A stretch of 64,000 bases of DNA from Artemia franciscana (lineage: Eukaryota > Arthropoda > Branchiopoda > Anostraca > Artemiidae). Location: assembly GCF_032884065.1 (NCBI RefSeq), contig NC_088866.1, positions 48,147,490-48,211,489 of the forward strand. Direction: 5' to 3'. The number at the start of each line of letters is the position of its first letter. Position 1 is the first letter of the stretch. The notes under the pieces are model-generated. The model ran no database searches and was not told where the DNA came from. It was given only the letters and a program-made list of their open reading frames with translations. Position numbers and translations under genes: made by a program. This document shows positions 49,556 to 63,637 of this stretch, piece after piece.

Positions 49556-49745
49556 GTTATAATTAAAATAATTATAATTAAAATTCTATAATTATAATTA
49601 ATTATAATAATTATAATTAATTAATATTTTAATATTAATTATAATTATTAATAATTAATTAATTAATTAATTAATATTAATTATAATTAATAATTATTAA
49701 TTATAATTAATAATTATAATTAATAAATAATTATAATTAAAATTC
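49556..49745. repeat. AATTATAATTAATTA palindromic simple-sequence tract
   Basis: About 190 bp made almost only of AATTATAATT, TTAATTAATT and ATTAATTATT words, each self-complementary; it can form many alternative hairpins. Lies just downstream of the calsyntenin stop on the gene strand. Confidence 0.9.
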
Positions 49746-49826
49746 AAGCTTAACACTGCCACCAAATGATCAAAGAACACAATAAAATGAAAATACTGAT
49801 TTGTCAAAATATGATTGTTATAAAAA

Positions 49827-50012
49827 TTAGAGGGATTGATCCCACTCTAAATCCTTAGATTGTGTGATATGGTCAACGCGAAAATCGTCATCGTCGTCAT
49901 CATCAAAGTCATAATCATCACTGCTATCATTACTGTCTGATGCCGAATCATCAGCAACTTCTGGTACTTGAGCAACTACCGTCATGGTTGCTTTCTCATT
50001 AGAATCTAATGC
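49827..50012 (-). CDS. Cals: calsyntenin terminal exon
   Basis: 186 nt, 61 codons plus TAA (49829-49827). Acceptor 'CCTTATTTTTAG' (50014-50013). Acidic run DYDFDDDDDDDF, C-terminus LEWDQSL. Its first ~55 nt ('GCATTAGATTCTAATGAG…GTACCAGAAGT') are repeated in degenerate form many times in the upstream intron. Confidence 0.88.
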   Translation of the reverse strand, partial: ALDSNEKATMTVVAQVPEVADDSASDSNDSSDDYDFDDDDDDDFRVDHITQSKDLEWDQSL

Positions 50013-53000
50013 CTAAAAATAAGGGAATCATAAACAAACAGACAAAGATGAATGCATAGACAGAAAAAGAGAGAATAATAAATAGGCAAAGTGAGAAGGA
50101 ATAAATAGAGGAGAAAGAAAGCATATTAAAAAGAAAAATAATTTCTGGTACTATAGCTAACACTATCTCGATTGCTTTATCGGTATAATCTAATGCGTAA
50201 AAAACAAACGAATCATAAATAGATAAAGAAGGACGAAAGAATAAATAGAGACAAAGATGGGGCAATACAAAGTGGAAATAAGAAGAAATAAATACATGAG
50301 AATGATATCAGAAGATTCGGAAGTTGTACAATTTAAGATTTCAGGTTTTGTGCTTTTCTTTCATTTTTAGGAAAAGAACGACGTAAATATGGCGATTTAT
50401 TTTAGTGAAGGCGTGCTGGTTGACCCGAGTATTTGTCAGATTAATGTCCCCTTTCCCTAAATTTCTTATGATCACATGGCAGACAATTATAAATTGCAAA
50501 AGTAATTCACCTTTAACCTGACTTGACTGTGTGATTAAAATTAGGCATTTTGACTGCAAAGAATAAGTCAACTTTCCTCAGTTGCTCAGAACAAATTATT
50601 AACAGACTAAAATTAGACCCTGCGTTCTCTTCCACCAATCACTATTTTGGTAGATTATGCAAACAGGTCGTGGAAATTCCCGATTGGTCGCTAGCACCAT
50701 GTTATGGCAATTGGAGTGCGTTATTTTTCGCATTACTGCATATTTTTAACCCTGTTTCCTGGCCAGGGTCGTAGATACCGTAAGATTACAATTTGGTTTA
50801 ATTTCGGATTACTGAACCCCAAGTTTTATTATCCTTTGGCAGGGATGATACCAAGGAGCTACCATATCAGGGATCAAAGGGGGGAGGTCACCTCCAGGCA
50901 TAATTTCCGCTCAGTTATAACCATGTACGTACACCTCTACTCTAGCCTGACTACAGAGCGAAGTAGTCGAAGATAGTTTTTAAGACATGCCAAGAGGCGG
51001 TAGTAACTATCGGGAACAATCTCAATCCCAAGATTTTCCCGATAGTTTCAGGCTTTAGATACTAGCCTACAATTATAGCCTATAGCTATTCTCGTTTGGA
51101 TAGTGTGTAAGTCCATTGGTAAGTTTGTATATTTATCCAACAATGAAGCAAGCAGTGGTTTTAGCAGTCAAAAACTGCATTTCAAGAGCTTTGTTTCACC
51201 TATTTAGTGAAACAGTACCCTGTTTCACCACTACCAGGAGCTTACCCTCCTAATGATAGTGCTGCACCTACTACGCCGAAAGAAAAAAAAAATGATAGAA
51301 TAAAAAATATAAACAAACAACGAATAACAAATAGAGCAAGCAAAAAGAAATCAACATGGAGAATAATATTAATTTACAAGGAGATAGAATATTAGCTAGT
51401 ACTAAAGCTACGGCTGTCAATTTTACTTTGTCCTTGCGTTTGGAAACACAAAATAAAGGAATAATGAATAGAAATAAAAATAGAAGAGAAAAAGAAGGAT
51501 AGCTTCCGATACTAGAGCTATCACTTTCACGAATACCGCGTTATTAGATTCTACAGCCGAAAAATCGATGAGTCATACACAAAAAAAAAACGATAAACAA
51601 AAATAGAAAAAAAGATGGAAGAATAATCTGCGAGAGAAAAAAGAATTAAAAACGGCAATCTGATAAATGGAATAGATATAGAATAGCTTCTCGTACTAGA
51701 ACTACGACTGTCATGGTTGCTAAGTCTATGGTTGCTAAGCTTTGTCCATGGTTGCTAACTCTAAAGCCCAAAAATAAAATAGTCATAAACAAACAGAAAA
51801 TGATGGAGGAATATATATAGATAAAGATAGAAAAATGAACAGCGAAATACAAAGGAGTAAAAACAAGAGAATTACAACAGATCAAAAACATAAGAAGAAA
51901 CATTTCTGGGTACTAGGACTATACCTATCATGGTAAGATTCTAAAGCCTAAAAATCAAGGCATCCTAAACAAGCAGACAACAATAAAGGAAGGGATAGAA
52001 TCAAGGATAGAAAATAAATAGTGTGAGGAGAAGGGACAAAAACGAGACAACTACACAAAACTAAACATATATACAAGAGTAGTTTCTGGTACTAAAGCTA
52101 CAACTGTCAAAGTCACTTTGTCATAAGGTTCTAAAAACTAGCAATCAACAGATCTAATAAAAGCAGAGAAAAATAGAAGAAGGAAGAGAAATAATGATAG
52201 AAGAATAAATAGCGAGACAAGAAACGAAGAAAAACGGGAAAATGATGGTAGACAAGTTTGAATCCAGGATATTGTTTGGGAAGTTTTTATAAAAAAAATC
52301 ATTAAAACACATAAAAAATTTGTTTAAATGCATTTTTACAAGTCGGATAAAATGTTTTTGGACGGGGGGGGGGGGGTAGGTTAATCCCAGTAAACCTCAT
52401 ACGGCCTTGATGGTAGATTAAATAAGTGTAAAATAACTTCAGCTACTAGAGCTACAACTGTCATGGTCGCTTTTTTTATTAGATTATTAAGCCTAGAAAT
52501 AAAGGAATTGTAAGCAAATAGAGAATGATAGAGAAATAACAGGAAATAAGGATAGAACAACAAATTTTGAGAGCAAAGGGAGTCAACACATGTGAGAATG
52601 AGAGCAAATACGAAGATATAGAAGATTAATTTCTGGTACTAGAGCAATAACAACCGTGGTTGGCTGATGCTAAAAAAAAATATTTGGCATAAATACTGAG
52701 AGTAAAAAGGGATAAAATCATCTTCATCTAGAGATTTTTGGCCATAAGTTCCTAACTGTCCTGTTTTTAGTCGATTTCTGGGCTCCCTAACACTCTTCCC
52801 ATCTCCAAAAATATATAGTTGCCTTGGCATTTTAGTCCCCCGAAAATGTAAACAATGGACAATTTGCAAAACGACTGCTATGGTGGGATGGACCATTTTA
52901 TCCTTGTATACGTATCCACATCTGGAAATTATGATCCAATGTCATGGAGAGTTCCAACAGGTACCAAGGGGCAAAAATGGTCCGAGAGAGACGAGGGGGC

Positions 53001-53858
53001 GCTGGTTGCTCTAAAAACACTGTTAAACCATGAAAAGAACACCAGAAATTTCAATTTTGAATGAGATGAGCCCCCTCCCAAGTTTCTATGACTTCTTTAG
53101 TAGAAAGTAGCCCCGACAAATGCATGGGAGGCGCTTCACTCTTCTAACGAACCGTCGAAAAGCAACCAGGTTTTTCTCGTTTTAAAAAAAAACTATCACT
53201 ATATTTTATTGAAAGAAGAATAAAAAAAGAAGTACAATAATTGAACGTCTCGTCGCTTAAGGTTTTTCCAAGAGATTCCGTTTGAACAAACCGTCTGAAT
53301 TTATTACAGTCAAACTACCTTCTGCTTTGAATACTTGCTTCTTCTATTGAAGGTAAAATCATCCAATTTGTCATCTTGACAGGAATGAATCATAAAGGGA
53401 TGTTACAATATTCAAATATAAAACTTTGAAAAATGTTTTTTTGAATGTTTTATGAAAATAATTCCAATAAAATAGAGTTATTTTAACAATAAAGTTTTGA
53501 AAATGTGGCTTACTAGAGATGGAGCTTGTTTATTTTACCAGCTCCTACTCTAATTTCTAAGCACTCCCTTAATAACGTTTAGGAGCAACACCAACTCCAG
53601 AACTAGCATTTTTTTTGGGCTTGGACACTTTAATATTGGGTCAATTTAAATAAACTTTCTTCACGTAAGTTTAGAAAGAACCAACCTCTAAGGGATTCAC
53701 AGTGATATTTAGTGCCATGTCATCCCATGCCATTTCAGACTCTGCATTGGCTTCATCTTTAGCCCTCTTCTGGGCGGCCCGAACACGGACAACCCCGAGT
53801 GTTATCATCAATATGAGGAAACTGGCACAAACAATTACTACAATGGTAACCGCATGAC
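49827..53858 (-). CDS. Cals: calsyntenin, 3' end (two exons; 5' part not in window)
   Basis: Calsyntenins are type I cadherin-domain membrane proteins of neurons; their cytoplasmic tail links vesicles to kinesin-1 through W-D motifs. Exon 53858-53686 encodes 'GHAVTIVVIVCASFLILMIT' (membrane helix), 'LGVVRVRAAQKRAKDEANA', 'ESEMAWDDMALNITVNPLE'. Exon 50012-49827 encodes 'ALDSNEKATMTVVAQVPEVA', 'DDSASDSNDSSDDYDFDDDD' and ends 'SKDLEWDQSL' stop. The membrane anchor, 'EMAWDD.AL.ITVNP', the acidic run and terminal 'LEWD.S' match the calsyntenin C-terminus in order. Both M-A-W-D-D and L-E-W-D are kinesin light chain-binding-type motifs. The junction is phase 0. Upstream exons were not found. Coordinates include the intron. 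Confidence 0.9.
50141..52675 (-). repeat. intronic array of ~185-bp units derived from the calsyntenin terminal-exon acceptor
   Basis: On the minus strand at least eight degenerate copies of the exon start 'GCAACCATGACGGTAGTTGC' + 'TCAAGTACCAGAAGT' lie at 50141-50204, 51391-51450, 51501-51567, 51685-51776, 51900-51955, 52083-52145, 52434-52503 and 52629-52675. Several keep the acceptor (at 52490: 'TTTATTTCTAGGCTTAATAA'). Conceptual readings include 'IKKATMTVVALVAEV' and 'LATMTVVVLVREA' beside the real 'EKATMTVVAQVPEV'. Start-to-start spacing is 183 (from the real exon), then 110, 184, 215, 183, 351 and 195 after a 1.25-kb interruption. Each unit also carries a purine-rich intron part ('ATAAACAAACAGACAAAGAT'). 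Confidence 0.8.
50300..51385. other. insertion-like interruption of the exon-derived array
   Basis: About 1.1 kb of less purine-rich sequence separates the first relic unit from the others. Open frames at 50550-50774 and 50704-50976 have no recognised motifs. The phrase 'GAACAATCTCAATCCCAAGA' near 51014 is flanked by the inverted words 'ACTATCGGGA' and 'TCCCGATAGT' (51007-51050), a short stem. Confidence 0.4.
52860..53660. other. calsyntenin intron proximal to the TM exon
   Basis: Has a family C/A-like piece at 52970-53120 ('GATGAGCCCCCTCCCAAGTT', 'TCTATGACTTCTTTAGTAGA'). Otherwise no recognised feature. Confidence 0.4.
53686..53858 (-). CDS. Cals: calsyntenin transmembrane / proximal cytoplasmic exon
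   Basis: 173 nt. Acceptor 'GATCTTGTAG' (53860-53859), donor GTTGGT (53685-53680). Begins with two bases completing a Gly codon and ends in phase 0 after 'NPLE'. The membrane helix 'AVTIVVIVCASFLILMITLGV' is followed by the basic stop-transfer 'RVRAAQKRAK' and the first tryptophan-acidic motif 'MAWDDMAL'. Strong family match. Confidence 0.92.
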
Positions 53859-53909
53859 CTACAAGATCAAATATCTTTAATTTTTAGGTAAAAGATGGGA
53901 AAGCAAGCG

Positions 53910-61984: not shown

Positions 61985-62545
61985 TCCCGGTGTCCCGGTC
62001 GTCATTTACATCCCCCTGTTTCCCCCGGTGTCCCCGTTGTAGTTGTGTCCCTGTGTCCCGGTCGTCATTTATATTCCCTGTGTCCCGGGTCCCGGTCATC
62101 ATTTGTATCCCGGTGTCCCGGTCTGTATATACATTCGTTTTTTAGTTTTGTTTTTCTCCTTTATTTTTTTCCTTTTTTTTTCTTTTTTAGCTTATTTAGA
62201 TTTTTAGATTTTTTAGTTTTTTTTATTAGTTTTTAGTTTTTATTTCTTTTTAGTTTTTTTGTCCCGGTCGTCATTTATATCCCCCTGTTTCCCCCGGTGT
62301 CCCCGTTGTAGTTGTGTCCCTGTGTCCCGGTCGTTATTTATATTCCCTGTGTCCCGGTCGTCATTTGTATCCCGGTGTACCGGTCTGTATATACATTCGT
62401 TTTTTAGTTTTGTTTTTCTCCTTTATTTTTTTCCTTTTTTTTTCTTTTTTAGTTTATTTAGATTTTTAGATTTTTTAGTTTTTTTATTAGTTTTTAGTTT
62501 TTTTTTCTTTTTAGTTTTTTTGTAGTTTTTACCTTCTTTTTAGTT
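61985..62545. repeat. Helitron-internal tandem duplication, ~275 bp units
   Basis: Two copies starting near 61988 and 62264 share 'GTCCCGGTCGTCATTTA', 'CCCCCTGTTTCCCCCGGTGT', 'CCGTTGTAGTTGTGTCCCTG', 'GGTCTGTATATACATTCG' and a T-rich tail. Short 'TGTCCCGGT' words repeat inside. Open frames here are repeat readings. Confidence 0.85.
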
Positions 62546-62559
62546 TTGTTAATTTTTTT

Positions 62560-63637
62560 TTTTACTTGTGTCCTGGTCGTCATTTATACTCCCTGTGTCC
62601 CGGTGCTTTGTTGATTGCTAATCGAACATTCCTTTTGTCCTGGTCGCTTTCTCTTTGAGTGTCGTCATTTATTTTTTTCTTTTTTAGTTCTTTTAGTTTT
62701 TACCTTTTTTAGTTTTTTTTTAGTTTTTAGTTTTTTTAGTTTTTTACCTTTTTTTAGTTTTTTTAGTTTTTTTAGTTTTTTAGCTTTTTTATTTTTTTTA
62801 TTAGTTTTTAGTTTTTTTGTAGTTTTTGCCTTTTTTTTAGTTTTTTTAGTTTTTTAGCTTTTTTATTAGTTTTTAGTTTTTTTTGTAGTTTTTGCCTTTT
62901 TTTAGTTTTTTTAGTTTTTTAGCTTTTTTATTTTTTTTATTAGTTTTTAGTTTTTTTTGTAGTTTTTGCCTTTTTTTAGTTTTTTCAGTTTTGACGTCAC
63001 CTGATCCAGTTTTTTCAGGTGACGTCACCTGATCCACGATCCACAGATCCACAGACAACTTATTTTTATATATATAGATAGTTTTTTTTTTTTACTTATG
63101 TCCTGGTCGTCATTTATACTCCCTGTGTCCCGGTGCTTTGTTGATTGCTAATCGAACATTCCTTTTGTCCTGGTCGCTTTCTCTTTGAGTGTCGTCATTT
63201 ATTAGTTTTTTCCTTTTTTTTTAGTTTTTTATTGGTTTTTACCTTTATTTTAGCTTATTTTTCAGTTTTTTCCTTTTTTTTAGTTTTTTTTTATTTTTTA
63301 TTTTTTTTAGTTTTTTACCTTTTTTTAGTTTTTTTAGTTTTTTTAGTTTTTTAGCTTTTTTACTTTTTTTATTAGTTTTTAGTTTTTTTTTGTAGTTTTT
63401 GCCTTTTTTTAGTTTTTTCAGTTTTTTTTTTAGTTTTTTATTGGTTTTTACCTTTATAGTTTTTTTAGTTTTTTAGCTTTTTTATTTTTTTTATTAGTTT
63501 TTAGTTTTTTTTGTAGTTTTTGCCTTTTTTTAGTTTTTTCAGTTTTGACGTCACCTAATCCAGTTTTTTCAGGTGACGTCACCTGACACATCCATCCATC
63601 CATCCACAGACAGACAACTTATTTTTATATATATAGA
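62560..63637. repeat. Helitron-internal ~530-560 bp duplication, including a second 5' end
   Basis: 'GTCCTGGTCGTCATTTATAC' begins at 62572 and again at 63101; both continue to 'TGCTTTGTTGATTGCTAATC' and 'GAGTGTCGTCATTTATT'. They proceed through TTTTTAG-type repeats to the CAGGTGACGTCACCTG palindrome (63019-63034; 63571-63586). Each then reaches 'CTTATTTTTATATATATAGA', the complement of the Helitron 5' start (63078 and 63637, 559 bp apart). Confidence 0.85.

Follow-up and report, generated by a model that had tools for sequence, protein, structure and literature searches.

The last intron of the calsyntenin gene in the 64,000-nt window analysed here (G000:C4:48147490-48211489, genome of 1.27 Gb) raises a question of descent. 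Degenerate copies of the start of the last exon recur within this intron, and the original prediction offered two origins for them: either the exon start was amplified together with its flanking intron, or a satellite unit was exonised. We favour, with a probability of roughly 0.8 for the whole account, a history in which an exon-start segment was duplicated and expanded, the relics decayed neutrally and the copies are now inert.

Calsyntenin, a nerve-cell gene, lies on the minus strand of the window. Its penultimate exon (5′ end approximate, both edges placed by eye) matched the Pfam model CLSTN_C (PF19699) with an E-value of 9.3e-20 and 71.3 bits (cut-off 27), and the last exon encodes ALDSNEKATMTVVAQVPEV, then an acidic stretch, and ends with LEWDQSL. 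The gene therefore has the marks by which a calsyntenin is recognised, namely the CLSTN_C domain with a transmembrane segment, a WDD-type motif and this tail end. In C. elegans, the calsyntenin tail is described in the relevant part of PMC5864096 as an acidic region flanked by two conserved WDDS motifs; the layout of the window gene is similar, with WDDM and WDQS. The last intron measures 3,673 bp, and its junctions (GAG/GTAGGT and AG/GCA) keep phase 0 as judged by eye. On its 3′ side the last repeat unit ends with the opening 57 nt of the last exon (49956-50012), and the tail segment ALDSNEKATMTVV is the stretch of calsyntenin at stake when copying from exon to array is set against exonisation. 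The Pfam CLSTN_C model stops short of this repeated segment and leaves it uncovered.

The last intron (3.67 kb) carries eight degenerate copies, all in one orientation, at window positions 50140-52669. In each repeat unit roughly 125 nt of intron lead up to the acceptor, and 57 nt from the start of the last exon follow it. For local alignment the query was the exon start extended by 15 nt of intron, and the target was the upstream intron (+ 50028-53700); the eight best scores were 39.5, 32, 26, 23, 21, 19, 17.5 and 15.5, one per copy. Among 200 dinucleotide shuffles the top score had a mean of 12.2 and a maximum of 17, and the eighth score reached 10.5 at most, while the best score was 15.5 in the antisense intron and 17 in the remaining window (60 kb, both strands). 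Seven of the eight copies scored above the top of all shuffles (17); c4, c5 and c8 exceeded it as pieces (35 nt of exon in c4 and c8, 25 nt of the acceptor region in c5), and c2, at 15.5, was not significant by itself. It had been proposed that the exon start and its acceptor are repeated in degenerate form at least eight times in the preceding intron, in the same orientation and mostly about 185 bp apart. The scores bear out the number, the orientation and the excess over shuffled intron, and the direct-repeat families D1, D2, D3 and D5 span the array. The spacing agreed as well, since five of the eight start-to-start distances (184, 1249, 112, 184, 214, 182, 354 and 193) fell within 182-214 and the largest, 1249, contains a repeat-like insertion of about 950 bp.

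The intron-like parts of the units could also be aligned; their mean identity was 0.59, and 30 mononucleotide-shuffled sets gave no value above 0.47, which indicates that the whole unit of about 185 bp was copied, beyond the exon piece. The sense strand of the array is pyrimidine-rich (0.64-0.70 versus 0.51 in window 1-49000), as expected for amplified 3′ intron sequence. Identity among units ranged over 0.47-0.77 in the exon-like part and 0.43-0.69 in the intron part, and TRF gave no array call because the copies are too dissimilar. Adjacent units were hardly more alike than non-adjacent ones (0.64 versus 0.63 in the exon-like part, 0.61 versus 0.57 in the intron-like part), suggesting little or no homogenisation. 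Folding of RNA at the exon/c1 boundary was no better than that of shuffles (z 0.37).

A second copy of the locus, the twin, was found in inverted orientation on the same scaffold, at a distance of about 237 kb. The twin sequence begins at a 100-N scaffold gap (47961020-47961119) and the window contig at another (48104240-48104339); the contigs 47961120-48104239 and 48104340-48200553 (window 1-53064) form an inverted dovetail of 93-96 kb, in which the larger aligned pieces are 93-99.5% identical and some stretches do not align. Because the contigs dovetail at 100-N scaffold gaps, the second locus is probably the other haplotype, as judged from assembly structure, and the scaffold would then carry an unpurged haplotype and a probable mis-oriented join. 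A true inverted segmental duplication could likewise place a twin of this identity at such a distance on one scaffold, and the penultimate-exon region has no second copy save a 65-bp end piece, which would fit that reading. However, the homologous ends fall at the scaffold gaps, where unmerged haplotype contigs would be expected to end, and an inverted duplication cut at both gaps would be a coincidence; we consider such a duplication improbable and treat the twin below as the other haplotype. A unit HMM matched the exon's unit and eight copies in the window locus and the exon's unit and seven copies in the twin, a result that is circular for the copies used to build the model, and elsewhere in the 266 kb searched no match had an E-value of 1 or below.

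Features of the calsyntenin last intron and its flanking exons in the window (AG, dinucleotide at the acceptor position; twin, the second locus)
Feature	Position	Strand	Remarks
Last exon, coding part	49827..50012	-	61 aa and stop
True splice acceptor AG	50013..50014	-	
c1	50140..50196	-	acceptor AC; aligned frame open
Insertion of about 950 bp in the array	50340..51285	.	old dispersed repeat
c2	51389..51446	-	most decayed; without AG; insertion present in twin only
c3	51501..51557	-	acceptor CG in window, AG in twin
c4	51685..51767	-	local expansion, net 26 nt, in window haplotype only; acceptor GG (AG in twin)
c5	51899..51947	-	AG kept; internal deletion
191-bp stretch, unit-sized	52022..52212	-	absent from twin; CTATTTATT at both ends
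c6	52081..52137	-	AG kept
c7	52435..52492	-	best exon match ('KATMTVVALVAEV'); AG kept; two stops upstream of that segment
c8	52628..52669	-	truncated 5′-most unit; AG kept
Penultimate exon	53686..53862	-	transmembrane segment and first kinesin-type motif EMAWDDMALNITVNPLE; then donor GTAGGT

Relic AG acceptors, which the original prediction had also noted, were indeed kept at the correct place, as read by eye, in four of the eight window copies and in five of the seven in the other haplotype. The aligned frame is open in seven of eight copies, a count that is uninformative given a neutral expectation of 0.74-0.91 for each. Besides both copies at the locus itself, the insertion of about 950 bp has 12 partial relatives elsewhere in the genome, with 67-76% identity. 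Between c6 and c7 (window 52256-52434) lies a stretch of about 180 nt with a run of 13 G, which is present in both haplotypes and unmatched by the unit HMM.

The window has eight relic units and the twin seven, which can be read as a difference in copy number if the twin is the other haplotype. The unit missing from the twin has its break points at about equivalent places of the neighbouring units. In its exon-like part c6 reaches no more than 0.67-0.72 identity with the neighbouring units, and the 191-bp difference is therefore a loss in the twin and not a fresh duplication in the window. Between haplotypes, the exon-like copies differed at 14/364 sites and the intron portions of the units at 43/977 (P 0.76), and thus the copies behave like intron. 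The insertion differed at 39/943 positions, the rest of the compared intron at 13/531 and a stretch of 3′ UTR at 1/84; four indels fell in the exon-like copies and six in the intron parts, and the coding exon had none. Divergence among copies in the exon-like parts is about 12 times that between haplotypes in the array, so that the array is old and would be expected in related species too.

The coding exon differed at 2/186 positions between haplotypes, both changes being synonymous (2/2) and the protein identical. Its low divergence was at one point taken as proof of constraint (exon versus array, P 0.039), an argument that was withdrawn because the neighbouring intron with c1 is equally low (5/327 versus 2/186, P 1.0), as is the 3′ UTR stretch. 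Divergence is in general lower near the last exon and c1 (window 49743-50339, intron 5/327) than in c2-c8 (window 51286-52720, 53/1036; P 0.004). Exchange between the relics and the live exon by gene conversion was also suspected, as the exon of one allele has ACAGTC like c4. Of 34 informative haplotype differences, the match to the unit consensus was 17 versus 17, with 20 others set aside (nine without consensus, seven matching neither, four of low coverage); as there was no asymmetry, gene conversion was dropped.

The direction of copying was approached through the consensus of the copies. By majority, the copies give the consensus ALESNDKATMTVVALVPEI, with V tied at the last codon; it has an open frame and comes close to the exon peptide. 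The true exon departs from it at 1/1/6 sites in codon positions 1/2/3, whereas the copies depart from it at 27/27/22. The contrast gave a one-sided Fisher P of 0.015, or 0.034 with the twin's exon, on eight exon differences of which one depends on the tied consensus base. When the window-haplotype c3 and c7 were swapped in, the counts became 29/27/23 and the P values 0.015 and 0.035. Counts of synonymous and nonsynonymous changes alone were not significant (4 nonsynonymous changes against expectations of 5.8 and 5.0; P 0.13 and 0.28). The differences of the exon being mainly at third positions and those of the copies even, the exon appears to have changed under coding constraint and the copies without it; the exon was probably already coding when it seeded the array, and its copies would be decaying neutrally. 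The copies were also considered as once-coding cassette exons, an idea that was rejected since they show no third-position excess and no obvious donor follows them (by eye).

The opposite course, in which a pre-existing intronic tandem repeat of about 185 bp gave the last exon its acceptor and its first 19 codons, is compatible with the position of the repeated segment outside the Pfam calsyntenin model, and a chance open frame over 19 codons is possible for a satellite unit. Three DNA probes taken from different parts of the array, searched against the 1.27-Gb genome with very common words skipped, nevertheless gave 4, 4 and 7 matches, all of them at this locus or its inverted twin, where a dispersed satellite would have its unit at other genomic sites. 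Most of the divergence between exon and consensus, being concentrated at third positions, moreover seems to have accumulated while the segment was coding. An exonised satellite is thus unlikely, and of the two origins first offered the amplification of the exon start with its flanking intron is the one that we retain. The last-exon protein likewise gave two matches in the genome, at the same two loci and 100% identical. A search for tail orthologues returned 103 matches of the penultimate-exon pattern in a collection of genome contigs and ten of the last exon in a collection of viral contigs, none confirmed in either; both are collections not meant for animals.

Under amplification from the exon, the founding event would have been the tandem duplication of a segment with roughly 125 nt from the 3′ end of the intron, the acceptor and 57 nt of exon. 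Expansion to at least nine units, possibly by head-to-tail unequal exchange or replication slippage, would have turned it into a minisatellite whose 3′-most unit is the live exon start. The relic units would then have decayed without the coding constraint under which the live exon changes, as the codon positions suggest in small numbers, and a dispersed repeat of about 950 bp would have entered the array by insertion. The array may still be able to lose units, as one is missing from the twin and, if the twin is the other haplotype, has gone from that haplotype.

As to function, the copies are most likely inert, and splicing would use the real exon's acceptor; this is the simplest reading because a comparison of haplotypes shows the exon-like parts to be conserved no better than the intron parts. 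It is conceivable instead that relic acceptors serve as alternative 3′ ends that depend on the haplotype and uncouple calsyntenin from kinesin-1, the acidic tail and LEWDQSL being replaced by a short, mostly hydrophobic read-through tail. The AG dinucleotides noted above would allow this, and 9-13 pyrimidines occur in the 16 nt upstream of the eight copies versus 12 at the true exon (the frames of some copies being off by up to 5 nt). In addition, c4 of the twin has both an AG and an open frame over 19 codons, and frames through c1 and c4, as derived from sequence, continue into mostly hydrophobic residues and then a stop. Yet haplotype divergence is as high in the copies as in the intron parts of the units, the AG of c3 and c4 occurs in the twin only, and the tandem boundary duplications of amphioxus discussed below are, in the account given in PMC3087553, reported without disturbance of regular splicing; functional alternative ends are therefore highly unlikely. 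Still more far-fetched is the idea that array length tunes the loading of calsyntenin on kinesin-1 through haplotype-variable alternative last exons that would truncate the tail and take away its C-terminal kinesin-type motif.

Inert copies of a live exon start have a known parallel. In the passages of PMC3087553 on the amphioxus globins BflGb6 and BflGb9, minisatellite-like tandem duplications of an intron-exon boundary are described as mirages, and further cases (PGBD5, Adh or Adh3, and TnC) are named in the corresponding part of PMC3902484. The calsyntenin array resembles them in its tandem copies of one orientation, which span an exon-intron boundary and lie beside the authentic one. The BflGb6 mirage takes in the 3′ end of an intron and the 5′ part of an exon, in units of 150-160 bp with 81-100% identity; splice signals are present in many of its copies but not all, and haplotypes carry six versus three (PMC3087553, as described for that gene). 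In calsyntenin, too, an AG is present in many but not all copies (4/8 and 5/7), and copy number varies by haplotype (eight versus seven relics, if the twin is the other haplotype). In contrast to BflGb6, the calsyntenin units are about 185 bp long, with identities of 0.47-0.77 in the exon-like and 0.43-0.69 in the intron part. The high identity and concerted evolution reported for BflGb6 are not seen here, and this feature is not common to all described mirages, as the PGBD5 copies are termed imperfect (PMC3087553 and PMC3902484, in the sections concerned). Unlike in amphioxus, a terminal coding exon is affected, and the genome is that of an arthropod, not a cephalochordate. A model of intron gain by internal gene duplication or tandem genomic duplication, mentioned in PMC3087553, shares with our case a tandem duplication across splice signals and differs from it in that, judging by sequence, no new exon or intron was created here.

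A search on amphioxus, boundaries and intron gain named no arthropod mirage in the titles among the matches listed, and no priority is claimed for one. What the locus offers is a boundary minisatellite of the mirage type, described from amphioxus and now met in an arthropod in an old, decayed state, in which a live exon start beside its dead copies provides an internal test of the direction of copying. Such arrays supply material from which cryptic acceptors can arise and introns or exons can be gained, and they are a trap for gene annotation; otherwise the array is an ordinary kind of intronic repeat.

Some observations on the genome at large were made alongside. The assembly contains 75 matches to COX1, of which 11 are near full length and interrupted by TGA only (e.g. 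G000:C4:9980752-9982092), and recent nuclear copies of mitochondrial DNA thus appear to be numerous in the genome. One nuclear COX1 copy, on a 63-Mb contig, reads through with TGA as Trp and shows the order nad2-cox1-cox2-atp6 (by eye), with a stretch resembling a leucine tRNA between cox1 and cox2 (by eye); at this locus ARAGORN found zero tRNAs, and Rfam found three others, not the leucine-tRNA-like stretch. The gene order and the code would fit Pancrustacea, which makes the crustacean origin presumed in the original prediction plausible. Within the window itself, positions 62000-63600 hold low-complexity lysine-rich frames and frames of the PGRHL/VSRSSF type (by eye), which are probably satellite-like repeats.
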